Assembly (NCBI GenBank): GCA_947598825.1
Contig: CANQFM010000016.1
Span: forward strand, 1-51,783
Source of the DNA: an uncultured Eisenbergiella sp.
Lineage (GTDB): Bacteria > Bacillota > Clostridia > Lachnospirales > Lachnospiraceae
Length of the DNA: 51,783 bases
Direction: 5' to 3'
The position numbers and the translations under genes are program-made. The notes under the pieces are model-generated. The model had not been told where the DNA came from. It made no database searches and saw nothing but the letters and a program-made list of their open reading frames with translations. Every line of letters starts with the position of its first letter. Positions within the stretch are counted from its first letter, which is position 1. Positions 1 to 22,422 of the stretch are shown here, piece by piece.

Positions 1-297
1 GATGCGAGGATTGTAGAAAATACATGCCTATGCGCGAATAGATGTTTTTTTCATGACAGCAGAGAGGTAGGGCTTGGCGAGGAATTGAAATATGTGAAAG
101 AGGTTTTAAAAACAGAACCAATTTATACTGCCTTCGATCAAGTGAACCGAAAGAAGATGGGAAAAAGTTCGCGGTTTATCACATTGAGCAGACATCATAA
201 TGCAATCCTTATTTATATATATCATATCTTGTGGACGATAAAAAATGAATTAGATTTGAGAAAATCTTCCGTGAGATCAGGGGGTATTAACAGATAA
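1..297 (+). CDS. C-terminal end of a family 2 glycosyltransferase, cut by the window edge
   Basis: The reading frame is open from the first base and stops with TAA at 295-297, so this is the 3' end of a gene that begins upstream. The residues around 85-180 (KYVKEVLKTEPIYTAFDQVN and following) match closely the tail of the pseudogene at 328-1314, which carries clear GT-A glycosyltransferase motifs upstream of the shared tail. By that homology it is the C-terminus of a capsular-polysaccharide GT2 enzyme that transfers a sugar on the cytoplasmic face of the membrane. Whether the full gene is intact cannot be judged here. A TTG at 85 is an in-frame alternative start but has no reason to be used. 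Confidence 0.6.
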   Translation, partial: DARIVENTCLCANRCFFHDSREVGLGEELKYVKEVLKTEPIYTAFDQVNRKKMGKSSRFITLSRHHNAILIYIYHILWTIKNELDLRKSSVRSGGINR

Positions 298-327: not shown

Positions 328-1314
328 ATGGAGGAGTCAATAGAGAAAAAGCTGTCAGTTATTATTCCTGTGTATAAAGTAGAACAGTATCTGCGGTAAT
401 GCCTGGATAGTGTGAGATAGATCAGACCTATGAAAACCTGGAGATCATTTTCGTGGATGACGGTTCTCCGGATAACTGTGGTGCAATCTGTGATGAATAT
501 GCGAAAAAGGATGAGCGTATCCGTGTGATCCACAAAAGGAATGAAGGATTGTCTGCTGCCAGGAACGAGGGAATCAGGGCAGCGACCGGTGAATGGCTGG
601 CTTTTATCGATTCCGATGATTGGTGTGAACTGGATTATTATGAAAGACTGATCAACGCTGTTGAAGGGTACGAGGCAGATATTTTTTGGGCGGGTGGGGG
701 ATTACGGGAATACGAGCATACCTGTAAAGAAATTGTCACGTCCAGGCAGGGCTTCTATATGCAGAGAGAAAAGATATTGACCATCTGATGGCGCAATGTC
801 TGAAGTTTGGCCCGCTATGGGACAAGCTGTTCTGTGTGTGATTCACTACTCGAAAAAGGTATTGTTTTTCGATGAGGCTCTCTATCATTGATGGATGAAT
901 CCAGATTCAATCGGACATAGATATACGGAGGATCGTGTTGTGATTGATTTAGATATTTACAGGGAACTGAATAAGATAGGTCGGTCATAAGATCTCCCCC
1001 GGCAGTATTACGATGCCTTGAATATTAGGATTATCACAAATACCATTCATCTGGGATGGAGGTGTCTTTATAATGCCAAACGAGATGGTTCCCTGTTGAG
1101 TAAAATAAAATACGCACGAGAGGTTCTTCATACTGAGTCAATATACACGGCATATAAAAAGGTTGACAGATCAAAACTTGGCAGGATAGGTCGTTGGATT
1201 ACTTTTTATCCAAGTCCGTAGCTGCTTTATTTTGCAACACGATGTATCCGTGTGTTTAATTGGATAACAATAAGTGGTTTTTTCTCAAGGAAAAGACGGA
1301 GGATAATTGAATGA
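328..1314 (+). pseudogene. Decayed family 2 glycosyltransferase
   Basis: ATG 328 opens a frame whose product begins with the GT2 signature LSVIIPVYKVEQYLR, then hits TAA at the position where paralogues have Gln-Cys-Leu-Asp-Ser. A frameshift near 412-420 moves the coding sense to another frame, which carries VDDGSPDNCG, NEGLSAARNEGI and FIDSDDW, the nucleotide- and metal-binding blocks of a GT-A fold. Further stops and shifts occur near 788, 830, 890 and 988. The C-terminal part (about 1018-1221) is homologous to the fragment at 1-297. After a TAG at 1219 the frame stays readable to a TGA at 1312-1314, which overlaps the next start codon as ATGA. The intact ancestor was therefore probably translationally coupled to the phosphonate gene. 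It should make no active enzyme. Confidence 0.85.
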
Positions 1315-3323
1315 AAGCCCTTATCTTAAATTCGGGACTTGGCAGCCGCATGGGAGTGTTGACAGCCGAACAGCCCAAATGCATGACAGAGATTTTACAT
1401 AATGAGACAATTCTAAGCCGTCAACTGAGAATGCTTTCGGAGGCAAACATAACGGATGTCATAATAACCACAGGACAGTTTGATAGTATTCTAATTAGCT
1501 ATTGTCAAAGCCTGGATCTTCCTCTGCATTTCACTTTTGTGAAGAACCCACAGTTCCGGGAAACAAACTATATTTTTTCAATTTATTGCGCAAGGGATTA
1601 TCTGCATGATGACCTAATCTTGATGCACGGGGATCTTGTGTTTGAAAATGCCGTGTTTGACGAAGTATTGTCCGCTCCTGGCAGTTGCATGACGGTGAGT
1701 ACCGCTCTTCCGCTACCTGAGAAAGATTTTAAGGCTGTTGTAAAGGATGGAATAATCAGTAAGGTCGGTATTGAGTTTTTTAATGAGGCGTTGGCTGCGC
1801 AGCCCCTCTATAAGCTGAAGCGGGATGATTGGGAGGCTTGGCTTGAACGGATCGTGGAGTTCTGTGAAAATGGCCGTGTCTCATGCTATGCAGAAAATGC
1901 TCTGAATGAAATATCCGAACAGTGCCATATTGCCGCACTGGACGTGCTGGACAAGTTGTGTGCAGAGATAGATGATCCGCAGGATTTGGCGGTCGTTTCC
2001 ACCAAACTCAGGGAAATTGAGAACCGCACTGTATATATGTGTTTCTCAACGGATATTCTCCACAGCGGTCATACAGGCATCATTAAAAAAGCAGCCCGGC
2101 TTGGAAAGTTGACGATTGGTGTTCTGTCGGACGAGGCGGTGGTTAGTTATAAGCGTTTCCCCCTGCTTCCCTTTGAAGAAAGGAAAGCGATGTTCCAGAG
2201 TTTGAACGGTGTTTATCAAGTTGTTGAGCAAAAAACTCTTAGTTATAGGGATAACATAGAGAGATTCCGGCCGGATTATGTGGTTCATGGAGACGATTGG
2301 AGAGTAGGCATTCAGAAACCCATACGGGACGAGGTGGTCTCCCTTCTGGCAAGTTACGGTGGGCAACTGGTAGAGTTTCCTTATGCGGGGGATGAGCGAT
2401 ACATCGAGGTGGAAAAACGGACGTTGGCTAGTCTCTCAGAACCGGATATGCGTCGAGGGCGGCTTAGAAAAACACTTGCCATGAAGGGCTTGTGTACCGC
2501 AATGGAAGCGCACAGTGGGATTACCGGTCTGATCGTGGAAAATACGGTTGTCCAGGAAAATGGAGGCGCTCACCAGTTCGATGCGATCTGGGTTTCCAGC
2601 CTGTGTGATTCTACAGCCAAAGGGAAACCGGATATCGAACTGGTAGATATGACCAGCCGTTTTCGGACTATTGACGATATTATGGAAGTCACTTCCAAGC
2701 CCGTTATATTTGACGGCGATACCGGAGGATTAACGGAGCATTTTGTGTATACGGTGCGCACATTGGAGCGCATGGGTGTATCCATGGTTATCATTGAGGA
2801 TAAGACCGGATTAAAGAAAAACTCATTGTTTGGAACAGATGTTGTACAAACACAGGACAGCATTGAAAATTTCAGCGCTAAAATCGCGGCTGGAAAAAGG
2901 GCACAGAAGACAAGAGACTTCATGATCTGTGCCCGTATTGAAAGCCTTATTCTGGAAAAAGGGATGGAAGATGCCCTGAACAGGGCATACGCATTTACCA
3001 AAGCGGGAGCGGACGCCATTATGATCCACAGCCGACGCAAGGATCCGGCAGAAATATTTGAATTCATTGATCGGTTCCGCGAGCAGGATGCTTCTACATA
3101 CCTTGTAGTGGTCCCTACATCGTTTAATACGGTTACGGAGGAGGAATTCAAGTCCCGCGGCGTGAATATTGTCATCTATGCAAACCAGCTTACGAGGACC
3201 GGCTTTCCTGCCATGCAAAATGCGGCAAAGCTTATCCTCGCGCATCACCGTGCAAAGGAATGTGATGATGTCTGTATGCCGATTGCGGATATTATTCGGT
3301 TGATTCCAGAGGACGAAGGATGA
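1311..3323 (+). CDS. pepM: Trifunctional PEP mutase: nucleotidyltransferase + cytidylyltransferase + phosphoenolpyruvate mutase
   Basis: This 670-residue protein has three domains. Residues 1-235 are a sugar-nucleotidyltransferase fold like LicC/PntC, with NSGLGSRMG at 7-15, PK at 22-23 and HGD at 106-108. Residues 238-370 are a TagD-like cytidylyltransferase with the HxGH motif at 251-254; the fosfomycin enzyme Fom1 carries such a domain, which cytidylylates 2-hydroxyethylphosphonate. Residues 385-660 are a PEP mutase of the isocitrate-lyase superfamily, with Mg-binding FDGDTGG at 467-473 and the diagnostic EDK-x5-NS at 496-505. The mutase isomerises PEP to phosphonopyruvate, the entry step to C-P bond metabolites. 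It overlaps the upstream pseudogene and the downstream reductase by ATGA junctions. The mutase call is very secure and the Fom1-like role likely. The substrate of the N-terminal domain is inferred. Confidence 0.93.
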   Translation: MKALILNSGLGSRMGVLTAEQPKCMTEILHNETILSRQLRMLSEANITDVIITTGQFDSILISYCQSLDLPLHFTFVKNPQFRETNYIFSIYCARDYLHDDLILMHGDLVFENAVFDEVLSAPGSCMTVSTALPLPEKDFKAVVKDGIISKVGIEFFNEALAAQPLYKLKRDDWEAWLERIVEFCENGRVSCYAENALNEISEQCHIAALDVLDKLCAEIDDPQDLAVVSTKLREIENRTVYMCFSTDILHSGHTGIIKKAARLGKLTIGVLSDEAVVSYKRFPLLPFEERKAMFQSLNGVYQVVEQKTLSYRDNIERFRPDYVVHGDDWRVGIQKPIRDEVVSLLASYGGQLVEFPYAGDERYIEVEKRTLASLSEPDMRRGRLRKTLAMKGLCTAMEAHSGITGLIVENTVVQENGGAHQFDAIWVSSLCDSTAKGKPDIELVDMTSRFRTIDDIMEVTSKPVIFDGDTGGLTEHFVYTVRTLERMGVSMVIIEDKTGLKKNSLFGTDVVQTQDSIENFSAKIAAGKRAQKTRDFMICARIESLILEKGMEDALNRAYAFTKAGADAIMIHSRRKDPAEIFEFIDRFREQDASTYLVVVPTSFNTVTEEEFKSRGVNIVIYANQLTRTGFPAMQNAAKLILAHHRAKECDDVCMPIADIIRLIPEDEG

Positions 3324-4438
3324 AACAGAAAGTTTTGACGAACGTCGTTGAACTTGAAACAGAACTGTTTTCGATAGGCTGTAAAAAAATCCTTTTGGTT
3401 TGTGGCGGTTCTTATGAGTGTTTGGATATACGAAAACAGATTGAGAAGTTTCCATTTTGTTGCATAAAGTTCAGCCATTTCCAGCCGAATCCGCAGTATT
3501 CGTCTGTTGTGGAGGGAGTGCGGGTGTATCACGAAAGTGGATGTGACGCGATTTTGGCCATCGGCGGAGGAAGCGCTATCGATGTGGCAAAATGTATCAA
3601 GCTCTTTGCCAACATGGATACGGGTCAAGACTTTTTGAAGCAGTCTGTTGTGCCAAACGATATCCCACTTTTGGCCATGCCAACGACAGCCGGGACGGGG
3701 AGTGAGGCGACCCGTTATGCGGTTGTCTATCGTAAAGGAAAGAAACAGTCAATCACTCATGACAGCATTCTTCCGTCCGTTGTGGTATTGGAACCGGATG
3801 CTCTTAAAAGCCTGCCGGATTATCAACGGAAAGCGACATTATTAGATGCTTTGTGCCATGGCATCGAATCTTGGTGGTCAGTAAATTCTACGGAGGAAAG
3901 CAGGCGGTATTCTGAACAGGCAATAAAGGACATACTGCTTTACAAAAACGCTTATCTGGATAACAGCGAGGATGGGAATGCAGGCTTGCTGTGGGCTGCC
4001 CACATTGCCGGGAAAGCGATCAATATTGCACAGACTACAGCGGGACACGCCATGTGCTATAAGCTGACAAGTCTATACGGACTACCACACGGCTATGCGG
4101 CAGCACTTTGCGTCGAGGTTCTCTGGCAGTATATGGTGGAACATATAGATGGCTGCATAGACCTTCGTGGGAAAGGGCATTTGAGACAAATAATGAACCG
4201 TCTTGCATCTGTTTTTGGATGTGAAAACCCAGAGGATGCACCCCGCTGTTTTTCGAAGCTTTTGGCCTCTTTGAATATGAAAGCACCAGAAATCCGGGAA
4301 AACGATATTCAGGAATTGGTAACATCTGTAAACCCAGAACGGTTAAAGAATTATCCTTTGGATCTCCCGATGCCGGTAATCCGGACACTTTACTACAAGA
4401 TATCAGATAGGAGTGGAATGGTAGCATATGAAAATTGA
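3320..4438 (+). CDS. Iron-containing alcohol dehydrogenase, probable phosphonoacetaldehyde reductase
   Basis: This 372-residue group III alcohol dehydrogenase has the NAD(P)-binding GGGS at 82-85, DVAK at 88-91 and PTTAGTGSE at 121-129. The metal ligands are likely D176, H180, H243 and H257. In phosphonate clusters this family (PhpC and relatives) reduces phosphonoacetaldehyde to 2-hydroxyethylphosphonate. The gene starts inside the stop of the PEP mutase gene (ATGA) and overlaps the phosphonopyruvate decarboxylase by 11 bases. That places it between the enzyme that makes phosphonopyruvate and the one that decarboxylates it. No aminotransferase is present, which favours hydroxyethyl- over aminoethyl-phosphonate. 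The family is certain; the substrate rests on context. Confidence 0.88.
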   Translation: MKQKVLTNVVELETELFSIGCKKILLVCGGSYECLDIRKQIEKFPFCCIKFSHFQPNPQYSSVVEGVRVYHESGCDAILAIGGGSAIDVAKCIKLFANMDTGQDFLKQSVVPNDIPLLAMPTTAGTGSEATRYAVVYRKGKKQSITHDSILPSVVVLEPDALKSLPDYQRKATLLDALCHGIESWWSVNSTEESRRYSEQAIKDILLYKNAYLDNSEDGNAGLLWAAHIAGKAINIAQTTAGHAMCYKLTSLYGLPHGYAAALCVEVLWQYMVEHIDGCIDLRGKGHLRQIMNRLASVFGCENPEDAPRCFSKLLASLNMKAPEIRENDIQELVTSVNPERLKNYPLDLPMPVIRTLYYKISDRSGMVAYEN

Positions 4439-5543
4439 GGATTTTGTTGCCGAACTGAGAGCGGATTTTTTTACGGGAGTGCCTGATAGTCAGCTTAAGG
4501 CGCTGTGCGATTATCTTATGGCCAGATATGGCACAGACCCGCTGCATCATATAGTGGCGGCAAACGAAGGAAACTGCGTTGCGCTTGCTGCCGGTTATCA
4601 CCTTGCAAGCGGGAAAATTCCGGTTGTTTATTTACAGAACAGCGGGGAGGGAAACATTATCAATCCTGTTGCATCCCTGATCAATGAAAAGGTATATGCA
4701 ATTCCGATGATCTTTGTCATTGGCTGGCGGGGCGAACCCGGAGTACCGGACGAGCCACAGCATATCTATCAGGGTGAAGTGACGCTGAAACTATTGGATG
4801 ACATGGGGATCGATCACTTTATCGTTGGGAAAGAAACGACACGGGAAGACATTTCATACCAGATGAAGACGTTCCGGATATCGTTGTCAAAGGGAAAACA
4901 GGTTGCGTTTGTGGTACAAAAAAATGCACTGGAATTTGATGGTAATGCAGCATATTCAAATGGATATAGCTTGACACGGGAAGAAGCTATCCGGCACATA
5001 ACAGCGGCTTCTGACAAAGATATTGTCATTTCCACTACTGGGAAAGCCAGCCGGGAGTTGTTTGAAATCCGGGAGGCCGCTGGACAGGGACATGAAAAAG
5101 ATTTCCTTACAGTTGGCTCTATGGGACACAGCAGCTCGATTGCGTTAGGCTTAGCAACACACTGTCCAATGAAAAAGGTGTGGTGTATTGACGGTGATGG
5201 CGCGCTGCTTATGCACATGGGTGCTATGGCATTGATTGGAGCAATCAAGCCCAAAAACCTTATTCATGTCGTGATAAATAATGGGGCGCATGAGTCAGTG
5301 GGTGGCATACCTACTGTGATTTCCGGAATGGACTTGATGGAGGTCGCAAGAGGATGTGGCTATCCTCATGTATATAGGGTGGATTCTTCATCTGGTTTGG
5401 ATGCTTTGCTTATACATGTAAGATCATTGAATGAACTGACTTTTGTGGAGGTTAGATGTTCGATCGGTGCAAGGAAGGATTTGGGGCGCCCAACGCAAAC
5501 GCCGGTAGAAAACAAGAAATGCTTTATGAGATATTTGGCTTGA
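4428..5543 (+). CDS. ppd: Phosphonopyruvate decarboxylase
   Basis: This 371-residue thiamine-diphosphate enzyme is the usual length for Ppd, which is shorter than typical ThDP decarboxylases. Visible motifs are FFTGVPDSQL near 14-23, the cofactor-activating glutamate E47 in ANEG, NSGEGN at 71-76, and the ThDP/Mg motif from GDG at 256-258 to NN at 284-285. It decarboxylates phosphonopyruvate to phosphonoacetaldehyde, the irreversible step that pulls the unfavourable PEP mutase reaction forward. Sulfopyruvate decarboxylase is the nearest alternative, but the adjacent PEP mutase settles the choice. It is the third gene of a tightly overlapping set, and a 95-base gap follows before the next start. 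Confidence 0.93.
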   Translation: MKIEDFVAELRADFFTGVPDSQLKALCDYLMARYGTDPLHHIVAANEGNCVALAAGYHLASGKIPVVYLQNSGEGNIINPVASLINEKVYAIPMIFVIGWRGEPGVPDEPQHIYQGEVTLKLLDDMGIDHFIVGKETTREDISYQMKTFRISLSKGKQVAFVVQKNALEFDGNAAYSNGYSLTREEAIRHITAASDKDIVISTTGKASRELFEIREAAGQGHEKDFLTVGSMGHSSSIALGLATHCPMKKVWCIDGDGALLMHMGAMALIGAIKPKNLIHVVINNGAHESVGGIPTVISGMDLMEVARGCGYPHVYRVDSSSGLDALLIHVRSLNELTFVEVRCSIGARKDLGRPTQTPVENKKCFMRYLA

Positions 5544-5638: not shown

Positions 5639-7156
5639 ATGAATCCAGAATATATTATTGTTCAAGCGGGTGGAAAAGGCACGCGTCTTGGCCATCTAAC
5701 TGTTAATAGACCAAAGGCGTTACTACCTGTCGACAACTTGCCTATGCTGTTCCACTTGTTCCAGAAGTATCCGGAAAAAAAATATATAATAATTGGGGAT
5801 TATAAGTATGATGTTCTGGAACGTTATTTGGACGTTTTTGCCGAAACGGAATACCAAATGGTTTGCGCCACCGGCTATACTGGGACATGTGCTGGACTGC
5901 GTCAGGCTGTAGAAAGGTTGCCAAAGGCCGTGCCTTTTGCGCTGATCTGGTCTGATCTTATCCTTCCAAGTGATTTTGAATTTCCTGAGAGACAGGGGAA
6001 TTACATTGGTGTGGCCAAAGATTTTCCCTGTCGATGGAAATTTGAGGATAACATTTTTACAGAAGAGTGTTCCGACACTTTTGGTGTAGCTGGCTTGTTC
6101 CTTTTTCAAAACAGATCTGTTTTGGAAGAGGTACCAGAAGAAGGAGAACTTGTGAGGTGGCTGGCAGGTAGGGATTTGAGTTTCCAAAGTTTCCCTCTCT
6201 ATGGGGTGAAAGAATATGGTTTACTGGAAGAATATGAAAAGCTAGAAGGTGTTCGGTGCAGGCCTTTTAATCGGATATACACAGAAAATGGATATTTTGT
6301 GAAGGAGGCTATAGACGATCAGGGTATCCTGTTAGCAAAAAGGGAGGCTGCATGGTACAAGCTGGTACAGAGTCGGCATTTTGCCAACATTCCGGACATT
6401 GTGTCATATGGACCATTAAAAATGGAACGTATTGCCGGTAAAGCTATTTATGAGTATGAAGATCTGGTGTATGAGCAGAAACGGAAATTACTGGGACGGA
6501 TTATTGAATGTCTTAAATCCGTACACAGGCTTGGGAGTGTTCCTGTAGACAGGGAAAGTTATAATCTGGCATATATAGGAAAGACATTTCAGAGATTGGA
6601 TAAAGTGAAAAATCTGATCCCTTTTGCTCGGGATGAGTATGTCATGATAAATGGGAGAAAATGCCATAATATATTTTTTTGTCGTAAAGAACTGGAAAAT
6701 CGGATTTCTGAATTTTTCCCTGCACAATTTAGACTTATTCATGGAGATTGCACCTTTTCCAATATAATGTTGAGGGAGGATGGCTCTCCGGTACTCATTG
6801 ACCCGCGGGGTTATTTTGGGAACACTGAACTATATGGGGATCCGGCCTATGATTGGGCCAAACTGTATTATTCTGTGGTGGGCAATTATGATCAGTTTAA
6901 CCGAAGACGGTTTAAATTGGTTATTGGGGAGAAAAGCATAACATTGCATATCTCATCCAATGGTTGGGAAAAACTGGAATCAGAATTTTTCCATTTGTTG
7001 GGTAATGAAGTAAAACCGGCGCAGATTCATCTGCTTCATGCGATTATATGGCTGTCACTGACCACTTATGCCTGGGAAGATTACGACTCCATTTGTGGAG
7101 CATTTTACAATGGACTCTACTACTTAGAGGAGGTACTTGATGGAGAATTACTTTAA
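5639..7156 (+). CDS. Nucleotidyltransferase fused to an APH/choline-kinase-like kinase
   Basis: The N-terminal part (about 1-205 of 505 residues) is a sugar-1-phosphate nucleotidyltransferase, with GGKGTRLG at 11-18, RPK at 24-26 and WSD at 104-106. The C-terminal part (about 225-500) has an aminoglycoside/choline-kinase fold: catalytic HGDCTFSN at 368-375 and the metal-binding IDPRG at 387-391, followed by YGDPAYDWAKL. One polypeptide thus combines a small-molecule kinase with nucleotide activation. LicA plus LicC (phosphocholine) is the best-known pair with these folds, but the SIS isomerase and HAD phosphatase directly downstream suggest a sugar. GGAGG lies upstream of ATG 5639, and the 3' end overlaps the SIS gene by 17 bases. 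The substrate is not known. Confidence 0.82.
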   Translation: MNPEYIIVQAGGKGTRLGHLTVNRPKALLPVDNLPMLFHLFQKYPEKKYIIIGDYKYDVLERYLDVFAETEYQMVCATGYTGTCAGLRQAVERLPKAVPFALIWSDLILPSDFEFPERQGNYIGVAKDFPCRWKFEDNIFTEECSDTFGVAGLFLFQNRSVLEEVPEEGELVRWLAGRDLSFQSFPLYGVKEYGLLEEYEKLEGVRCRPFNRIYTENGYFVKEAIDDQGILLAKREAAWYKLVQSRHFANIPDIVSYGPLKMERIAGKAIYEYEDLVYEQKRKLLGRIIECLKSVHRLGSVPVDRESYNLAYIGKTFQRLDKVKNLIPFARDEYVMINGRKCHNIFFCRKELENRISEFFPAQFRLIHGDCTFSNIMLREDGSPVLIDPRGYFGNTELYGDPAYDWAKLYYSVVGNYDQFNRRRFKLVIGEKSITLHISSNGWEKLESEFFHLLGNEVKPAQIHLLHAIIWLSLTTYAWEDYDSICGAFYNGLYYLEEVLDGELL

Positions 7157-7736
7157 AAGTGTGACAGAGAATATACAGAAATCTATAGAATCTATGGATA
7201 TGGCCGCATTTGGCCGACTTCTTGACGAGTGCGAGCAAGTGCTGAAAGATGGATGCAAAGTAGTAGTAAGTGGATTAGGGAAAAATGTGCCGGTTTGCGA
7301 TAAGTTTGTAGGAACTATGAATTCCCTTGGGTTACAGGCATGCTTTATGAACACCAATACGGCTGTTCATGGAGATCTGGGAATGGTTAAGCCTGGCGAT
7401 CTGGTTATTATTCTTACTAAGAGCGGAGAGACTGTGGAGTCTGTATATCTTACTGAGTTGTTGAAACAGCGCAATGCTGATTTATGGCTGTTGTCCTTTA
7501 GCCATGACAGCACGCTGACACATAAAATATCTAAGCACCTGATTTTGAAATTGGATCACGAGGGGGACGCATGGGACATCATTCCAAACAACTCTACTAC
7601 GGTGAATCTCATTGTCCTGCAAGGGCTTGCTCTTAGTCTGGCGGAGCGGATGGGGGTAACACTGGAACAGTTTAAGGCAAATCATCCGGGCGGTGCTATC
7701 GGGGAGAAATTGCGGGAGGATAGGACATGCGATTAA
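7140..7736 (+). CDS. SIS-domain sugar-phosphate isomerase (KdsD/GutQ-like, no CBS domains)
   Basis: The 198-residue protein is a single SIS domain. It carries GLGK at 45-48, HGDLGM at 77-82, the phosphate-binding KSGET at 94-98 and the C-terminal HPGGAIGEKL at 182-191, which is characteristic of arabinose-5-phosphate isomerases. Those enzymes interconvert a ketose phosphate and an aldose phosphate. Unlike KdsD it lacks the C-terminal CBS pair, as GutQ/KpsF-like forms in capsule loci often do. ATG 7140 is preferred over TTG 7137 because AGAGGAGG precedes it at good spacing. It overlaps both neighbours, so one operon with them is very likely. The sugar is not identified. Confidence 0.86.
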   Translation: MENYFKSVTENIQKSIESMDMAAFGRLLDECEQVLKDGCKVVVSGLGKNVPVCDKFVGTMNSLGLQACFMNTNTAVHGDLGMVKPGDLVIILTKSGETVESVYLTELLKQRNADLWLLSFSHDSTLTHKISKHLILKLDHEGDAWDIIPNNSTTVNLIVLQGLALSLAERMGVTLEQFKANHPGGAIGEKLREDRTCD

Positions 7737-8131
7737 AAACAAAATTAACAGAAATTTCTCTTTCATCATTAGGACATACTTGGATTTTAGACTTGGACGG
7801 GACTTTGGTCAAACATAACGGTTATAAACTAGACGGTAAGGATAGCTTTTTGGAGGGCGCCGAGGCATTTTTGAACGGTATTCCGCTGAAGGACATGGTG
7901 ATCATCCTTACCTCGCGTGCAGAAGAAACGCGTGACCAGACAGAGTCATTTCTTCGGGAGCATGGTATTCGTTATGATTTGATTCTTTATAACGTGCCAT
8001 ATGGGGAGAGGATTTTGATCAATGACGATAAACCATCTGGTCTGAGGACGGCGATCGCACTGGGAAAAAAACGGGATACTGGAATACTTTTACAGATAGC
8101 GAGAAAAAAAGAGATATTTGAAGAAAGGTAG
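7727..8131 (+). CDS. Small HAD-family phosphatase of capsule-locus type
   Basis: At 134 residues this is a minimal HAD hydrolase. The motif I aspartates lie in LDLDGTL near residues 18-24, motif II is the threonine/serine of ILTSR near 62-66, and INDDKP near 100-105 supplies the motif IV acidic residues. There is no large cap domain, which suits a freely exposed phosphorylated small molecule. It overlaps the SIS gene by 10 bases and ends six bases before the GT9-like gene. With the isomerase and the kinase/nucleotidyltransferase fusion it completes an isomerase, kinase, phosphatase, nucleotidyltransferase set. The substrate is inferred only. Confidence 0.78.
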   Translation: MRLKTKLTEISLSSLGHTWILDLDGTLVKHNGYKLDGKDSFLEGAEAFLNGIPLKDMVIILTSRAEETRDQTESFLREHGIRYDLILYNVPYGERILINDDKPSGLRTAIALGKKRDTGILLQIARKKEIFEER

Positions 8132-8137
8132 ATCAGT

Positions 8138-9103
8138 ATGAGCGACTTGAAAAAATACTATAGTTGGAAATTGGCGATCAGATCCCTTCTGAGAGATATG
8201 CCTAGAGCAATTTTGGGGGCTTTTGTTTTTGCTGAGTTGATTCGAAAGAAAGAACGTACTCATTATTTGGTGCTACCTTCACAATTGGGTGATTCGATGT
8301 TGGCATTGTCATATTTGTCCGAGTTCAAACGACAAAAAAAAATTAATCATGTGACAGTTGTCTGCACGCCTAATTATGAAAATAGGCTTTGTAGATACTA
8401 TCCTAATGTGGTGGATAATGTTATTTGTAAAGAGAAATGGAAAATCTATGCACTTCGAAAATTTATTTCCACGCTTATTGGTGAATATTTGTCTGTACTC
8501 TACCTTGATCGTATTACGTTTGTTCTTCCGACATGTAATATCAGCATGCGCGTACTTTGGGATAACCCATCGATTAGTTTCCCAATGTATGCAAAAGCTA
8601 TCCTTTATAAAATCAGTATGGCTTCTCGGCCGGAGAGACCGCAGGTTCCTGCAGTCGACATTTTAGGATTTATAAGCAAATATGATTTGAAGATTGGGCA
8701 TACGGTGTTCTTTAATCCAGTGGCAAATTCGGTACATTGTGATGTCAAAAAGTTACTGGATAATGCGGCAACTGAAATGAAAGCGAAGGGATATCAGGTG
8801 ATTACTTTAACGGCAAATGACGAAGAATTGCCCGTACAAGGTACACAGGCAATTCCATGTACTTTGGAAGAGGCGTTTTCTCTCGTGGAATATGGCGGAA
8901 CATTGATTGGTGTGCGAAGCGGTTTTCTTGATTTCATTGCATACGCGAACTGCAAATTGATTTCAATTCTCGATGCGGGTAACGGTCTAGAATCTTTTTT
9001 TAGGATAGAAGATATAGGAGTCAATCCAGATTGTCATACGCTTATATATGATGGTGATGATGAGGCAGCGCTACAGAAGATATTTGCGATTATGAGGTTG
9101 TAA
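8138..9103 (+). CDS. Putative GT9 (heptosyltransferase-like) glycosyltransferase
   Basis: The 321-residue protein starts with basic residues, then YLVLPSQLGDSMLALSYL near 46-63, which resembles the GT-B N-terminal glycine loop of heptosyltransferases. The C-terminal half has FFNPVANS, a Rossmann-like stretch ending in VITLTAND, and GVRSGFLDFIAYANCKLI near 264-281. That last block is typical of the donor-binding half of GT9 enzymes. It would act on the cytoplasmic side of the membrane on a lipid-linked saccharide. It directly follows the proposed sugar-activation genes. The family match is moderate and donor and acceptor are unknown; transfer of the phosphonate group instead of a sugar cannot be excluded. 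Confidence 0.6.
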   Translation: MSDLKKYYSWKLAIRSLLRDMPRAILGAFVFAELIRKKERTHYLVLPSQLGDSMLALSYLSEFKRQKKINHVTVVCTPNYENRLCRYYPNVVDNVICKEKWKIYALRKFISTLIGEYLSVLYLDRITFVLPTCNISMRVLWDNPSISFPMYAKAILYKISMASRPERPQVPAVDILGFISKYDLKIGHTVFFNPVANSVHCDVKKLLDNAATEMKAKGYQVITLTANDEELPVQGTQAIPCTLEEAFSLVEYGGTLIGVRSGFLDFIAYANCKLISILDAGNGLESFFRIEDIGVNPDCHTLIYDGDDEAALQKIFAIMRL

Positions 9104-9375: not shown

Positions 9376-10929
9376 ATGACGCGTACACAGAAATCACTGA
9401 AAAATCTGATAACAGCTTTTATTGGTCAATTTTTTGATATCATCATTAGCATAGTATCCCGCATTGTATTTTTGCGCTGTCTGGGAGCGGAATACCTTGG
9501 CCTAAATGGACTTTTCACAAATATATTGACAATCTTTTCGTTAGCGGAATTGGGAGTAGGGCAAGCGATCAATGTGGCACTATATAAGCCCTTAGTGGAG
9601 AAGAATATTGAAAAAGTGAAAAGCCTGATGGCGTTGTATCGCAAAGCCTATGTTACGATCGGTTGCGCGGTTGCCGGGCTTGGTTTTTCATTTACGCCCT
9701 TCTATAAAGTGTTTATGTCAGAAGTGCCTGCCGTCCCAAAACTGACCGTGATTTATTGGCTATTTACGATAAATACATCTATTTCCTATTTTTTTTCGTA
9801 TAAACGAGCGCTCATTATTTGTGATGAGAAAAGATACATCTCTAGTATTTATCATTATGGGACGATATTTCTGCTCAATGTCACCCAAATCTTCATTTTG
9901 TTGTTTACAAGGAATTATATTTTGTATTTGATCCTCCAAGTGCTGTTTACTTTGGGTGAAAATATGGCTCTTTCCAGAGTGGCAAACCATATGTATCCCT
10001 ATTTGTTAGATCAAAAGGTATCTCCCCTGACACGGCAGGAAAGGAAGGGAATATGGAAATATGTCAGTGCTATGGTTGTACATAAGGCCGGAGCAATGGT
10101 TGTAATTTCTTCCGATAATCTGATGCTGTCCCGATTGGTAGGATTGACTGCGGTGGGAGTTTACTCTAATTATTGTGTGATCACCGATGCATTGCACAAA
10201 GTTGTTCGTCAGATTTTTGAGTCAGTGCTAGCCAGTGTGGGAAATTTAAATGTGAGTCATTCCAAGGAAGACCGTCGAGAATTGGAGAGCGTGTTTAACC
10301 ATATGTTTTTCCTCAATTTTTATATTTATGGGTTTTGCGCATGTTGTCTTTGGGGGCTGTTTAATCCTTTTATCCGTTTGTGGCTTGGAGAGGCGATGCT
10401 GTTTGACCAATTAACAGTTCTAGCGATTGTCGTTAATTTCTATCTATACGGGATGAGGCAAACGACGTTAACTTTTTATGAGGCTTCGGGGTTGTTCTAC
10501 TATGACCGTTACAAACCACCGGTGGAAATTGTTATTAATATTGCAGTATCAGTTTTGCTGGCGAATAAACTGGGTGCAGCCGGTGTGATCTGGGGAACAG
10601 TTGTTAGCACAATGGCTACATGTATTTGGATTGAGCCGCATGTAGTCTACAAATATGTATTTCATAAGACGGCAAAAACATATGCAGTCACTTTTATAAA
10701 ATATACGCTGGTAGTTGGTGTGGCCTGCGCACTTACGTCCTTTTTTTCTGGCAGGCTGCTCTTTAGGAATGAATATATAAACTTTGGCTATCAGATGGTA
10801 CTTAATCTGCTCATTCCCAATTGTGTTTTTTCCCTTGTGTTCTGTAAATCAGAATCTTTTCGATATTATCTAGATTTTATAAAAAGTGTCATAAGAAGGA
10901 AAATTCACAGTAAAGGAAGGAAAGTATAA
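9376..10929 (+). CDS. Wzx-type polysaccharide flippase
   Basis: This is a 517-residue integral membrane protein with about twelve or more hydrophobic segments. It starts with a basic N-terminus and a segment containing FLRCLGAEYLGLNGLFTNIL near 30-49, typical of Firmicutes polysaccharide transporters of the MOP/MATE superfamily. Such proteins move undecaprenyl-diphosphate-linked repeat units across the membrane for polymerisation outside. AAAGGA precedes ATG 9376. The stop overlaps the start of the Wzy-like gene as TAATG, so the two are probably translated together. Specificity for a phosphonate-bearing unit is inference from the neighbourhood. Confidence 0.9.
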   Translation: MTRTQKSLKNLITAFIGQFFDIIISIVSRIVFLRCLGAEYLGLNGLFTNILTIFSLAELGVGQAINVALYKPLVEKNIEKVKSLMALYRKAYVTIGCAVAGLGFSFTPFYKVFMSEVPAVPKLTVIYWLFTINTSISYFFSYKRALIICDEKRYISSIYHYGTIFLLNVTQIFILLFTRNYILYLILQVLFTLGENMALSRVANHMYPYLLDQKVSPLTRQERKGIWKYVSAMVVHKAGAMVVISSDNLMLSRLVGLTAVGVYSNYCVITDALHKVVRQIFESVLASVGNLNVSHSKEDRRELESVFNHMFFLNFYIYGFCACCLWGLFNPFIRLWLGEAMLFDQLTVLAIVVNFYLYGMRQTTLTFYEASGLFYYDRYKPPVEIVINIAVSVLLANKLGAAGVIWGTVVSTMATCIWIEPHVVYKYVFHKTAKTYAVTFIKYTLVVGVACALTSFFSGRLLFRNEYINFGYQMVLNLLIPNCVFSLVFCKSESFRYYLDFIKSVIRRKIHSKGRKV

Positions 10930-12134
10930 TGCTCAAAATAAACCGGAAGAAATGCCTGTGGTTATTGCTAGTATTTCTTACATTGCCGCAGTTTGATCCT
11001 TCTTATTTTCAGGAGTATGCTACCCAGTGGGAGCCGCTTGTAAACAGTTGGCGGCTTATTTCTGCGTTGTTTATTCTAATATGGTTGCTCATTAAAAGAA
11101 GGCTGTCATTGATCGTATTGCTGATCGGTATAAGGCAGGGCTATATTGTACTCAACACATTGATACAGCGTGGCGCGTTCCGAGACTGCGCCCTTAGTGC
11201 GATAACTGTAATGGTCGTAGTCATACTCTATGATCTGATGCAAGAAGAACAGGAACTATTTCTTTCCTCTCAATTATTTTGTTTTGAACTGATAATTTAT
11301 GTGAATTTTGTAACAATCCTTCTATATCCAGAGGGGATGTACACATCGCTGATAGATGGTATAGTTGTGCGCAATGGAAGAAATTATTTTTTGGGTTATT
11401 ACAATTCCTTTTCAAAGTTTTTTATTCCAGCTTTATTAATTGCATTTTTGTACAAAGAATATACTGGGAAAAAAATGCGTACATGGCTATTGACAGCGAC
11501 ATGTTATATCTCTGCGCTGCTAATATGGTCAGGAGGCGTACTAGTTGCACTTTTTAGCATGGCATTTGTTTATGTGTTAATAAAAGATACTTCAAAATGG
11601 TTTAACTATTATAACTCATGGATTCTTCAAGGATTGTTTTTTTTGTTTGTTATTTGTTTGCGTTTAATGAATGCTTTTCGCTGGCTTATCGATGGCTATC
11701 TGCACAAATGGGATTCACTAATGTTGCGTACCGAGGTATGGGATATAGAACTGGCTCGGATCAGACGGTCATGGCTCTTTGGTTATGGTAAATTACCAAC
11801 GGTGATCCGAGTGGCTGAGACAAAGAAATCCTGGGGGATGCATGCTCATAATCAACTTCTCGAATTGCTGTATCGGGGAGGAGTGATCAACTTGATTTTA
11901 TTTGTGGTAATTATTTATATGGCAGGCAGGACAATCTATAAGGGCAGAGATATCAATAGTAAATTGATCACGATTGCCTTTTGGGGGTGGTCTATGGTAG
12001 CTATGGTAGATCCGCATGAAGATCCTTTTTTAATGGCAATGTTTGTTATTGCTTATTATGCCAACCGAAGTATGCCAGTTTTTAAGAAAGGTTCCTCTCC
12101 ACCAGTTTCAGTGGAAAGCCATAGGTTAAACTGA
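10929..12134 (+). CDS. Wzy-type polysaccharide polymerase / O-antigen-ligase family protein
   Basis: The 401-residue protein is very hydrophobic, with about ten membrane segments. A large polar loop near 270-310 ends in LFGYGK and then WGMHAHNQLLELLYRGG, the histidine-containing block typical of Wzy/WaaL proteins. It should join flipped repeat units into chains at the outer face of the membrane. It is coupled to the flippase gene by a one-base TAATG overlap. Sequence divergence in this family is high, so polymerase and ligase cannot be separated by sequence alone; the adjacent flippase supports polymerase. It is the last apparently intact gene of the AT-rich capsule locus. Confidence 0.85.
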   Translation: MLKINRKKCLWLLLVFLTLPQFDPSYFQEYATQWEPLVNSWRLISALFILIWLLIKRRLSLIVLLIGIRQGYIVLNTLIQRGAFRDCALSAITVMVVVILYDLMQEEQELFLSSQLFCFELIIYVNFVTILLYPEGMYTSLIDGIVVRNGRNYFLGYYNSFSKFFIPALLIAFLYKEYTGKKMRTWLLTATCYISALLIWSGGVLVALFSMAFVYVLIKDTSKWFNYYNSWILQGLFFLFVICLRLMNAFRWLIDGYLHKWDSLMLRTEVWDIELARIRRSWLFGYGKLPTVIRVAETKKSWGMHAHNQLLELLYRGGVINLILFVVIIYMAGRTIYKGRDINSKLITIAFWGWSMVAMVDPHEDPFLMAMFVIAYYANRSMPVFKKGSSPPVSVESHRLN

Positions 12135-19568: not shown

Positions 19569-20618
19569 ATGAATCTGCAATACGACAAGGCGCAGTTGGA
19601 GGATGTGATCGACCGCATCGTAGACCGCACCATGAAGATGGATCTGACCTGGGACTGGCCCTGCGGCGTGGCCTATTACGGGATCAGCGAGGCCTATGAG
19701 AAGACGAAGAAAGAGAAGTATCTGACTCTCTTAAAGGACAGGGTGGACGAACTCATCGACCTGGGGCTGCCGAAGGTCTGGACGGTGAACGCCTGCGCTA
19801 TGGGGCACTGTCTGATCACGCTGTATCAGGCCACCGGCGAGCAGAAATACTGGGATATCCTGATGACCAAGATTGAATATCTGCGCAGGGACGCGCTTCG
19901 GTTCGGGGACAATGTGCTGCAGCATACCGTGTCCGCCAACAACGATTTTCCGGAGCAGGCCTGGGCGGATACGCTGTTCATGGCGGCGTTTCTGCTGCTG
20001 CGGGTGGGCGTGATCCTAAAGGACGAGGACATCATCGAGGACGCGCTGAACCAGTGGTACTGGCATATCAATTATCTGCAGGATGAGAAGACCGGCTTTT
20101 ATTATCATGGCTATAACAACATCACGCAGGATCATATGTCCGGCATTTACTGGGGACGGGCCAACGCCTGGGCGGCCTACACCATGTCGAAGGTGGGCGG
20201 CATCCTGCCGGAGTGCTACCTGTATCCCAAATATCTGGATGTGGCCGGATCCTTAAACGATCAGTTGGCCGCTCTTAAGACCGTGCAGACGGAGAACGGC
20301 CTCTGGAGGACCGTGCTGGACGATGAAGAATCTTATGAAGAGGTTTCCGCCTCCGCAGGCATTGCGGCGGCCATGCTGGAGCGGGGCAATCCGCTGCACA
20401 CCCGCTGTCTGAATAAGGCGATCCGGGGACTGCTGGCCAACGTAAGCGAGGACGGCCGGGTGATGAACGTGTCCGGCGGTACGGCCGTGATGAAGGATGT
20501 AGAGGGCTACCGGGGCATTTCCAGACGCTGGATCCAGGGCTGGGGCCAGGGGCTGGCGCTGGCGTTTTTCTCGGGCGTCCTGGTTTCCGATTCCATTCAG
20601 AAAGACGGTGCGCTCTGA
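19569..20618 (+). CDS. GH105 unsaturated rhamnogalacturonyl hydrolase
   Basis: The 349-residue protein has the (alpha/alpha)6-barrel repeats of the GH88/GH105 group: WDWPCGVAYYGISEAYEK near 26-43, AWADTLFMAAFLLLR near 130-144, GIYWGRANAWAAYTM near 186-200, and GISRRWIQGWGQGLALAFF near 318-336. YteR, the model enzyme, removes the unsaturated galacturonyl residue left on rhamnogalacturonan oligosaccharides by a lyase. No signal peptide is present, so it acts in the cytoplasm on imported oligosaccharides. AGGAGGG precedes ATG 19569. It is the first gene of the operon containing the CE12 esterase, GH112 phosphorylase and rhamnose mutarotase. Assignment to GH105 over GH88 rests mainly on this context. 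Confidence 0.92.
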   Translation: MNLQYDKAQLEDVIDRIVDRTMKMDLTWDWPCGVAYYGISEAYEKTKKEKYLTLLKDRVDELIDLGLPKVWTVNACAMGHCLITLYQATGEQKYWDILMTKIEYLRRDALRFGDNVLQHTVSANNDFPEQAWADTLFMAAFLLLRVGVILKDEDIIEDALNQWYWHINYLQDEKTGFYYHGYNNITQDHMSGIYWGRANAWAAYTMSKVGGILPECYLYPKYLDVAGSLNDQLAALKTVQTENGLWRTVLDDEESYEEVSASAGIAAAMLERGNPLHTRCLNKAIRGLLANVSEDGRVMNVSGGTAVMKDVEGYRGISRRWIQGWGQGLALAFFSGVLVSDSIQKDGAL

Positions 20619-20619
20619 G

Positions 20620-22389
20620 ATGTATCGCGCAAAATATAGTTTTGCCTCCGGCGGTACGGACAAAATCCCGGTATCGCCGGGGCTGCTTTATGCACAAAAG
20701 CCGGGATACGGCTTCGTGACGGAGAAAAACCGCAGGCAGCAGGCGCTTCTGCGGATCCCGGAATTAAACAGCGGCTTTGAACCGGCCCCCTGGTTTTGCG
20801 ACAGCGATCTGACCGATATCGGGCAGGATGAGGCCGGCTGCTTCGGACAGGGCGTGTATATGCCCCAGGAGAGCCGGCGGATCCCGCTTTGCTTTAAGGC
20901 CGGAGTGCTAAAAGGCGGGCGCTATAAGGTGACGCTGCTTTTGTATAGCCGGGAGGATATGCGGGATATCCGGGTCTTTTCCGGACGCCGTCGGCTGGAG
21001 ATGGCGCAGCCCTTCCTGAAAGCGGGGACGCCTCTCGAGTGCAGGATGTGGGTGGACGTGAGCGATATCATCCCCCGGGGGCATACGGAGGCGTTTGCGG
21101 ATACCGCCGTGGATCTGGCCGTGGTGGCCGACCGGCCCTGTATCGCTTCCATTGCCATCGAAGAGACGCCGTGTCCGGCGGTCTTTCTGGCGGGGGATTC
21201 CACCGTGACGGACCAGACGGCCCAGTATCCCTTTTCTCCCATGGACAGCTATGCGGGCTGGGGACAGATGCTTTCTTTCTTTTTCGGGGAAGGCGTCGCC
21301 GTATCCAACCATTCCCATTCCGGGCTGACCACTGAGAGCTTCCGGCAGGAAGGGCACTATGAGGTCATGAGGCGCTTCTGGAAGAGGGGCGATTATATCC
21401 TGTTCCAGTTCGGCCACAACGATCAGAAGCTGTCCCATCTGCAGGCGGAAGGCGGCTATCGGGAGAATCTGGCGCGCTATATAGAGGAGGCCAGGGAGGC
21501 AGGACTGCATCCGTTGCTGGTGACGCCTCTTTCGCGCAATACCTGGAAGGGCAGCGACGGCAGCTATAACGATCTTCTGGAGGCGTATGCCGAAAGCTGT
21601 CTGCGGCTGGGAAGAGAAATGGAAGTCCCGGTGCTGGATCTGCATGGGCAGAGCATGGCCTTTCTGAAGGAGAAGGGGAAGGAGGCGGCAAAGCCCTACT
21701 TTTTCCCCGGCGATTATACCCATACCAACGACTGCGGCGCCTGTCTGATGGCCTGGAAGGTCGCCTGTCAGATCCGTGAGGTCTGCGGTGGGGACAGACG
21801 GGCTGCCTATCGGGATCTGGCGACGTATGTGCAAACGGAGCTGCCGGAGGATTTGTGCCGGCCTGAACCTGTTTCAGCGCTGGAAAAGCCGGAGGGCTAT
21901 GTGCAGGAGGTCATGCAGCAGGGCAGCCGGGATCTGCTGGAGGATCTCACAGATCCGGAAGGCGTGCTGCTGCGGGCAGAGGGGCTGGACATGGTGGTGC
22001 GCAGCGCGGGCTTTTTCCAGACGAACGTTTACAATGATCTGTTCACCGACGTGGTAGGGCACGAGTGGTATGCGGGGATCGTGGAATGCGCCCTGCAGAA
22101 CGGCATCCTGATCCCCGAGGTGTGCCGCGGGAAGCTGTTTTGTCCGCAGGAGCCGGTGACGCTTCTGGATTTTCTCGTTTTTGCCATGAACGCCTACAGC
22201 AGCCGGAAAGAGCTGCCGGAGGCGGCAGATTGCCCTTATGACGGTCAGGCGCCGGACTGGGCCAAAAAGGCGGTGCGCGCGGCCTGGGCGCTGGGCGTGC
22301 TGGATGCAGACGGAAAGGACAGGCTGGCGTCCGGGATCAGTCGGAGACGGGGCGCGCAGATCTGCAGAGATATTAAAATATTGGGTTGA
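20620..22389 (+). CDS. CE12-type rhamnogalacturonan acetylesterase with C-terminal SLH-like repeats
   Basis: The first ~185 of 589 residues form a beta-rich domain of the type found before CE12 esterases. Residues ~186-390 are an SGNH hydrolase: nucleophile block AGDSTVTD (Ser194), SGLTTESF, FGHND near 264-268, and the Asp-x-x-His pair in GDYTHTND (D365, H368). CE12 enzymes remove acetyl groups from rhamnogalacturonan. Residues ~473-585 hold two SLH-like repeats: FTDVVGHEWYAG to PVTLLDFLVFAMNAY, then APDWAKKAVRAAWALGVL. SLH repeats normally anchor secreted proteins to the cell wall, yet no signal peptide is visible. ATG 20620 follows the GH105 stop directly (TGAGATG); GTG 20608 is an alternative start adding four residues. 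Confidence 0.87.
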   Translation: MYRAKYSFASGGTDKIPVSPGLLYAQKPGYGFVTEKNRRQQALLRIPELNSGFEPAPWFCDSDLTDIGQDEAGCFGQGVYMPQESRRIPLCFKAGVLKGGRYKVTLLLYSREDMRDIRVFSGRRRLEMAQPFLKAGTPLECRMWVDVSDIIPRGHTEAFADTAVDLAVVADRPCIASIAIEETPCPAVFLAGDSTVTDQTAQYPFSPMDSYAGWGQMLSFFFGEGVAVSNHSHSGLTTESFRQEGHYEVMRRFWKRGDYILFQFGHNDQKLSHLQAEGGYRENLARYIEEAREAGLHPLLVTPLSRNTWKGSDGSYNDLLEAYAESCLRLGREMEVPVLDLHGQSMAFLKEKGKEAAKPYFFPGDYTHTNDCGACLMAWKVACQIREVCGGDRRAAYRDLATYVQTELPEDLCRPEPVSALEKPEGYVQEVMQQGSRDLLEDLTDPEGVLLRAEGLDMVVRSAGFFQTNVYNDLFTDVVGHEWYAGIVECALQNGILIPEVCRGKLFCPQEPVTLLDFLVFAMNAYSSRKELPEAADCPYDGQAPDWAKKAVRAAWALGVLDADGKDRLASGISRRRGAQICRDIKILG

Positions 22390-22422
22390 CATAAGCCGGG
22401 AGACCGGCGGAAAAGAGGCATT

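Follow-up and report, generated by a model that had tools for sequence, protein, structure and literature searches.

Three overlapping phosphonate genes

The stretch of DNA analyzed here, referred to as the window (51,783 nt), is the entire contig C16 (CANQFM010000016.1) of an uncultured Eisenbergiella sp., and it has near its start a cassette of three putative phosphonate genes. At window 1311-5543, on the + strand, three intact open reading frames are found, 1311-3323, 3320-4438 and 4428-5543, which overlap by 4 and 11 bases. The first codes for a triple fusion of 670 residues, assigned with Pfam and NCBIfam: a PntC/LicC-like cytidylyltransferase at the N-terminal end (residues 1-236, the N-domain), a Fom1-like cytidylyltransferase in the middle (residues about 238-360) and a phosphoenolpyruvate (PEP) mutase (residues 385-668). 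The second codes for an iron-type alcohol dehydrogenase (Fe-ADH, PF00465), a proposed phosphonoacetaldehyde reductase, and the third for phosphonopyruvate decarboxylase (Ppd, TIGR03297). A first-pass annotation of the sequence had described PEP mutase, Fe-ADH and Ppd as three overlapping genes, and the coordinates and family scores agree with it. The cytidylyltransferase domain it named is present, but the first gene holds two such domains, one more than the annotation mentions.

The PEP mutase part scores 394.6 bits against TIGR02320 (curated cut-off 319.55) and Ppd 457 bits against TIGR03297 (cut-off 312.5), so that both belong to their families. The PEP mutase motif EDKx5NS was reported at residues 496-505 and is indeed there, as EDKTGLKKNS. 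Fe-ADH matches PF00465 with 122 bits (cut-off 31.3) and is 45% identical to a Segatella copri homologue annotated as phosphonoacetaldehyde reductase; D176, H180, H243 and H257, which we take to be the metal-ligand positions of Fe-ADH, are all in place. The N-domain matches PF12804 (NTP_transf_3), with the best stretch at residues 3-122, and has the PntC motif GxG(T/S)R...PK and the LicC/PntC fold. The middle domain matches PF01467 (CTP_transf_like) at residues 248-342, and its best solved match is the cytidylyltransferase (CyTase) domain of Fom1 (5x3d, E 2e-38). It displays the HxGH motif as HSGH and is fused to PEP mutase, as expected of a Fom1-type domain. All motifs tested are kept in PEP mutase, N-domain and Fe-ADH. 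A chance match is excluded by the family scores together with the conservation in other genomes.

Association of the N-domain with Fe-ADH in other genomes

Loci with PEP mutase were compared in several samples. The GTDB set consists of the best 80 of at least 421 confirmed loci, selected for their resemblance to the fusion of the window, and all have the N-domain. A class sample of 391 genomes contains 32 with PEP mutase (the host genome included), and a phylum sample of 398 genomes contains 16, of which 13 are new. The sampled set has 44 loci of other genomes and the three loci of the host, i.e., 47 loci from 45 genomes, some cut by contig ends. The Fe-ADH profile was made from 60 sequences free of N-domain/Fe-ADH fusions, the other PntC type was counted at 150 bits or more, and the aminotransferase label corresponds to TIGR03301, which was above cut-off in all three members tested.

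Among the 47 sampled loci, 21 have both N-domain and Fe-ADH and 23 have neither; the N-domain occurs alone in two and Fe-ADH alone in one. One of the two, L128, permits no judgement, as its contig stops after PEP mutase. The other PntC type and the aminotransferase are found together in 16 loci and never singly. The Fom1-like domain is present in 44 of the 47, whatever the headgroup. In the GTDB set, Fe-ADH is in the flank of 73 and Ppd in that of 71 of the 80 loci; two loci (L045, L055) have an aminotransferase, both times beside Fe-ADH.

N-domain plus Fe-ADH occurs in 16 of the 391 class genomes (16 of the 32 with PEP mutase) and the aminotransferase in eight, one genome being in both counts; among the 13 new phylum genomes the numbers are four and eight. 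These counts suggest that 2-hydroxyethylphosphonate (HEP) is a frequent alternative to aminoethylphosphonate (AEP). The cassette recurs among other gut and rumen bacteria, and six of the 80 GTDB loci come under names of Bacteroidales or Bacteroidaceae. With such frequencies, loci of this kind are not exceptional.

The domains are joined in more than one way. In the 23 sampled loci that have it, the N-domain is fused to PEP mutase in 13, is a separate frame in eight (one of which, L171, is cut by the contig start) and is fused to Fe-ADH in two. L155 is an open frame of 567 residues with N-domain and Fe-ADH, and L154, of 1203 residues, has a family 2 glycosyltransferase in addition, with a C-terminal part that is LicD-like by eye and has no Pfam match. 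L182, from the AEP branch, is the mirror image of L154 and L155, with PntC fused to the aminotransferase. Tde1415 of Treponema denticola is likewise a PntC-aminotransferase fusion (PMC6697681).

A histidine at the Glu104 position

In the AEP-specific PntC, Glu104 is near the amine. At the position of the Treponema denticola Glu104, all 101 N-domains have His and all 16 PntCs from aminotransferase loci have Glu, while Arg15 and Lys25 are kept in all 100 N-domains that cover these positions. The N-domain may thus work like PntC, yet by its His it is not classed as an AEP-PntC, and one active-site residue seems to separate the HEP set from its AEP relative.

A route from PEP via phosphonopyruvate and phosphonoacetaldehyde to HEP, with an iron-type alcohol dehydrogenase, has been described (PMC8976061). 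HEP rather than AEP as the product, as the first-pass annotation had it, together with activation by cytidine monophosphate (CMP), is well supported by the co-occurrence with Fe-ADH and by the His. The surface phosphonate usually considered in PMC6697681 is AEP, and one could suppose that it is made here with an aminotransferase encoded elsewhere, Fe-ADH being incidental. We consider this highly improbable. TIGR03301 has no match above cut-off in the whole host genome (best 43.1 bits, cut-off 360.8), which bears out the absence of an aminotransferase claimed earlier; as mentioned, the enzyme is also rare in the triple-fusion loci, and the Glu that contacts the amine is replaced by His. The genome search and this His led us to reject AEP as the product. 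A testable rule follows by which the surface phosphonate of a gut bacterium could be read from sequence: Fe-ADH and His at the Glu104 position would indicate HEP, aminotransferase and Glu would indicate AEP.

Two cytidylyltransferase domains

A fused and a separate nucleotidyltransferase can occur in one cluster (Rice 2019, PMC6697681), and the cassette raises the question why a second cytidylyltransferase is fused to PEP mutase in most clusters of this type. Fom1 acts on HEP and makes CMP-HEP (PMC6697681). A realistic possibility, though at less than even odds, is that the Fom1-like middle domain makes CMP-HEP as in fosfomycin synthesis, with the N-domain acting on the acceptor or on a later intermediate; the product would be HEP here as well. 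The closeness of the middle domain to the Fom1 CyTase agrees with this, as does the mean identity to Fom1, which is 50.6% for the 102 HEP-branch segments (80 from loci chosen for their likeness to the window) and 43.2% for the 12 AEP-branch segments. Of the 102 HEP-branch middle domains, 100 retain HxGH and two have HSAH. However the Fom1-like domain is also present in 13 of the 16 aminotransferase loci, L154 and L155 have Fe-ADH fused to the N-domain and not to the Fom1-like domain, and in L143 a HEP module is combined with a PEP mutase that belongs to the AEP clade and has a Fom1-like domain of the AEP type. The occurrence in aminotransferase loci also led to rejection of the Fom1-like domain as a marker of HEP loci.

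The N-terminal PntC-like domain co-occurs with Fe-ADH and invariably has His where PntC has Glu104, which makes it the more likely HEP-activating enzyme and a better candidate than the middle domain. L143, with its AEP-type middle domain and HEP module, likewise makes us favour the N-domain as the enzyme specific for the headgroup.

Proposed pathway and attachment to a surface glycan

The family memberships are read directly from the sequence, and from them we infer the substrates and CMP-HEP. PEP mutase would convert PEP to phosphonopyruvate and Ppd would convert this to phosphonoacetaldehyde; decarboxylation by Ppd pulls the unfavourable PEP mutase step. Fe-ADH would then yield HEP, a small compound whose carbon-phosphorus bond is tough, and a fused cytidylyltransferase would couple HEP to CMP. 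A transferase would move the phosphonate onto a repeat unit, to be exported by a Wzx-type flippase and polymerized by a Wzy-type polymerase. Genes for both of the latter had been placed in the same locus; four other genes, two of them without a Pfam match, lie between them and Ppd. The polymerase (10929-12134, + strand) is above its cut-off, with 35.5 bits for PF04932 (Wzy_C) against 31.7, but the flippase (9376-10929, + strand) is below, with 19.4 bits for Polysacc_synt against 28.2.

LicD matches are found on C7, C24, C32 and C54 of the host genome and none on C16. Because LicD is absent from C16, and no gene of the cytidine diphosphate (CDP)-glycerol-transferase type is present in its first 13 kb, we infer attachment of the phosphonate to a glycan from the gene context. 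CMP-HEP as a donor for a surface glycan, the role suggested in the first-pass annotation, thus agrees with the comparative evidence as far as activation is concerned, while its attachment step follows from context. The cultured Segatella copri DSM 18205 (NZ_CP085933.1; L198:12001-17475) has a triple fusion 71.6% identical to that of the window, Ppd and an Fe-ADH with the label phosphonoacetaldehyde reductase. Behind these lie a gene of the CDP-glycerol glycerophosphotransferase family and genes for a polymerase and a flippase. Since this cultured strain carries the cassette, the HEP idea is directly testable. The record on which the S. copri cassette sits is called a plasmid.

We put at about 0.75 the probability that the locus makes a surface glycan decorated with HEP, with the N-domain as the likelier activator of the two cytidylyltransferases. 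Several observations weigh against this. The Fisher value for the co-occurrence of N-domain and Fe-ADH in the 47 loci, 4e-10, takes no account of descent. In a tree of 48 PEP mutase sequences six changes are required for the N-domain, and the starred branches give five independent pairs in which Fe-ADH goes the same way in 3.8 and the opposite way in 0.3 on average (p 0.125, the lowest value that five pairs allow). L127 has the N-domain without Fe-ADH, and L144 has Fe-ADH without the N-domain. Seven of the 80 GTDB loci have no Fe-ADH; one of these, L077, has another module, and no replacement was identified in the six flanks examined. L071, a triple-fusion locus and the only one of the 80 with the other PntC type, lacks an aminotransferase match; it has two further PntC-like frames (segments near 1839 and 3554), in which the Glu104 position holds Glu in one case and Ser in the other. 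Fe-ADH of the window reaches no NCBIfam equivalog cut-off (best 130.2 bits against 550), and Gln replaces H180 in 14 of 60 Fe-ADH relatives. Finally, no transferase was identified: genes of the LicD or CDP-glycerol-transferase types accompany 23 of the 80 GTDB loci (10 of the 40 whose flanks are complete) and nine of the 23 sampled N-domain loci. At these frequencies neither type was retained as the general transferase.

The lack of an identified transferase would also suit a pathway in which HEP is a mere intermediate to a secreted small molecule and no glycan is decorated. HEP is an intermediate of argolaphos, and activated HEP one of fosfomycin synthesis (PMC8976061). However no HEP-modifying enzyme is found among 20 Pfam-scanned window proteins (three of them without a family, and the last 21 kb of the window being outside the scan). 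In addition, flippase and polymerase occur in the locus of the window and in that of S. copri, and L154 joins N-domain and Fe-ADH to a glycosyltransferase. A secreted product is therefore quite improbable, and decoration of a glycan with HEP is the preferred interpretation.

Other phosphonate loci of the host genome

The host genome (3.05 Mb, 110 contigs) encodes SpoIVA (613.7 bits). L153, from genome G202 of the host's family, is identical over 19,901 bases to L018 from Acetatifactor sp. HAN001, a genus placed in the Lachnospiraceae by NCBI. The earlier designation of the host as one of the spore-forming Clostridia is supported by both findings.

PEP mutase and Ppd are each above cut-off three times in the genome, on C16, C24 and C7. 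On C24 a separate capsule-type locus has a triple fusion 75% identical to that of the window, an Fe-ADH 53% identical, Ppd and an open LicD upstream. On C7 (L010:5393-11167), a Fom1-like/PEP mutase fusion and Ppd flank a short-chain dehydrogenase gene, a PntC-like gene in which Ser occupies the Glu104 position, and a split transketolase; N-domain, Fe-ADH and aminotransferase are all missing from this locus. It is conceivable that the product of the C7 module is a chain-extended phosphonate. The same module of short-chain dehydrogenase, PntC-like gene and split transketolase stands behind the triple fusion in L077. A PntC of the C7 type has a match (E 1e-40) in one of the 390 other class genomes, and in 16 kb around that match neither PEP mutase nor transketolase halves were found.

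The Ppd genes of C7 (L010) and C24 (L011) share 95.8% DNA identity over 1120 bases, a block that coincides almost exactly with the Ppd gene. Because the identity is 77.6% in the PEP mutase stretch, this one case suggests a recent recombination or exchange at Ppd between the two loci. Such an exchange fits an exchange of modules. Gut Clostridia might then run a modular headgroup system, with PEP mutase and Ppd constant: Fe-ADH and a His-type PntC would lead to HEP, aminotransferase and a Glu-type PntC to AEP, and a third module (the one on C7 and in L077, with short-chain dehydrogenase, Ser-type PntC and split transketolase) to a new chain-extended phosphonate. We regard this generalization as less likely than not; if true, two of the loci in the host genome would be for HEP and one would belong to the third type.

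Other gene sets were seen near PEP mutase. Within the C7 capsule-type locus, genes that by eye resemble those for a radical S-adenosylmethionine activase and a glycyl radical enzyme lie at L010:11225-15539, and in L146 homologues of both share a stretch with the HEP cassette. L144 (9073-15709) has PEP mutase followed by an HMGL-type synthase and a thiamine pyrophosphate enzyme (by eye), Fe-ADH and a separate second Fom1-like domain; its route is possibly phosphonomethylmalate-like. L132, L138 and L141 share another module, with neither Fe-ADH nor aminotransferase, which consists of a gene with a weak saccharopine-dehydrogenase-like match and a DUF6564 gene (tested in L132 only), and of RmlB-like and phosphoesterase-like genes (by eye).

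Relation to known systems

Neither the enzymes nor the HEP route nor nucleotidyl activation is new, and published counts of triple fusions exist. HEP is reportedly the phosphonate carried by the phosphonoglycans of Glycomyces and Stackebrandtia. These (Yu 2014, a title cited in PMC8931226; Stackebrandtia is also named as a phosphonoglycan producer in PMC12723261) have a phosphonate on a polysaccharide, as is proposed here for a host in the Lachnospiraceae. In the PntC phosphonyl-tailoring pathway of Treponema denticola Tde1415 and relatives (PMC6697681), an aminotransferase and Glu104 take the places of the Fe-ADH and His found here, and PntC is fused to the aminotransferase, whereas the N-domain is fused to PEP mutase or Fe-ADH. 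Fom1 of fosfomycin synthesis, a CyTase-PEP mutase fusion, has the same arrangement of middle domain and PEP mutase; the window adds an N-terminal cytidylyltransferase, and its locus has a flippase and a polymerase. Fusions with the same domain set as the window's, PF12804-PF01467-Ppm, make up 42 of 1485 in Rice 2019 (PMC6697681), where the passages on them count them without further study. The phosphonoacetaldehyde reductases PhpC and FomC belong to cd08182 (PMC5125639); the Fe-ADH of the window shares their family and the proposed reaction, its assignment being at the level of the Fe-ADH family.

In titles and abstract starts of the open-licence papers listed in literature searches, no description was found of a HEP-specific PntC or of this cassette, and neither in these nor in passages of a few papers were the N-domain/Fe-ADH link, the His/Glu signature, the N-domain/Fe-ADH fusions or the transketolase module met with. 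Being limited to open-licence papers, these negatives are weak evidence of novelty.

Genes surrounding the cassette

The upstream part of the locus is cut off by the contig edge. Positions 1-297 (+ strand, three-frame translation) hold the open 3′ part of a gene whose beginning lies beyond the contig edge; by eye it resembles the end of a family 2 glycosyltransferase. It is followed at 328-1310 (+ strand, approximate bounds, three-frame translation) by a decayed family 2 glycosyltransferase gene with stops and frame changes, of which the fragment 453-788 matches Glycos_transf_2 with 95 bits. The upstream continuation was sought with end k-mers of at least 21 bases, and none was found in C54 (whole), C32 (1-33000 of 35,117), C24 (1-8000) or the last 5.5 kb of C7. 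The broken glycosyltransferase gene just upstream of the cassette could mean that the locus is decaying and makes nothing now. This is rather unlikely, as the cassette and the genes that follow are open and the motifs tested in PEP mutase, N-domain and Fe-ADH are kept. Overall, the first-pass interpretation of the locus is supported for HEP, CMP activation and a spore-forming host, but it missed the second cytidylyltransferase, its glycan attachment follows from context, and it concerns a cut locus with a decayed gene upstream.

The four genes between Ppd and the flippase are all on the + strand. A nucleotidyltransferase-kinase (APH) fusion at 5639-7156 has PF12804 and PF01636 above cut-offs. 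A KpsF-like SIS sugar-phosphate isomerase at 7137-7736, shorter than KpsF, scores 44 bits for PF01380 (cut-off 25) and 105.3 for TIGR00393, below the cut-off of 203.7. A small HAD-like protein at 7727-8131 is recognized by eye only, from DLDGT, and the gene at 8138-9103 is for a putative GT9-like glycosyltransferase; neither has a Pfam or NCBIfam match. Together the four (window 5639-9103), of which the last two are identified by eye, look like a set of genes for heptose-style sugar activation.

After the polymerase there is a Na:Ala symporter gene on the opposite strand, which is probably the end of the locus. Further downstream, at window 19569-24591, are genes for a GH88 family hydrolase and a lacto-N-biose phosphorylase, which probably serve glycan foraging.

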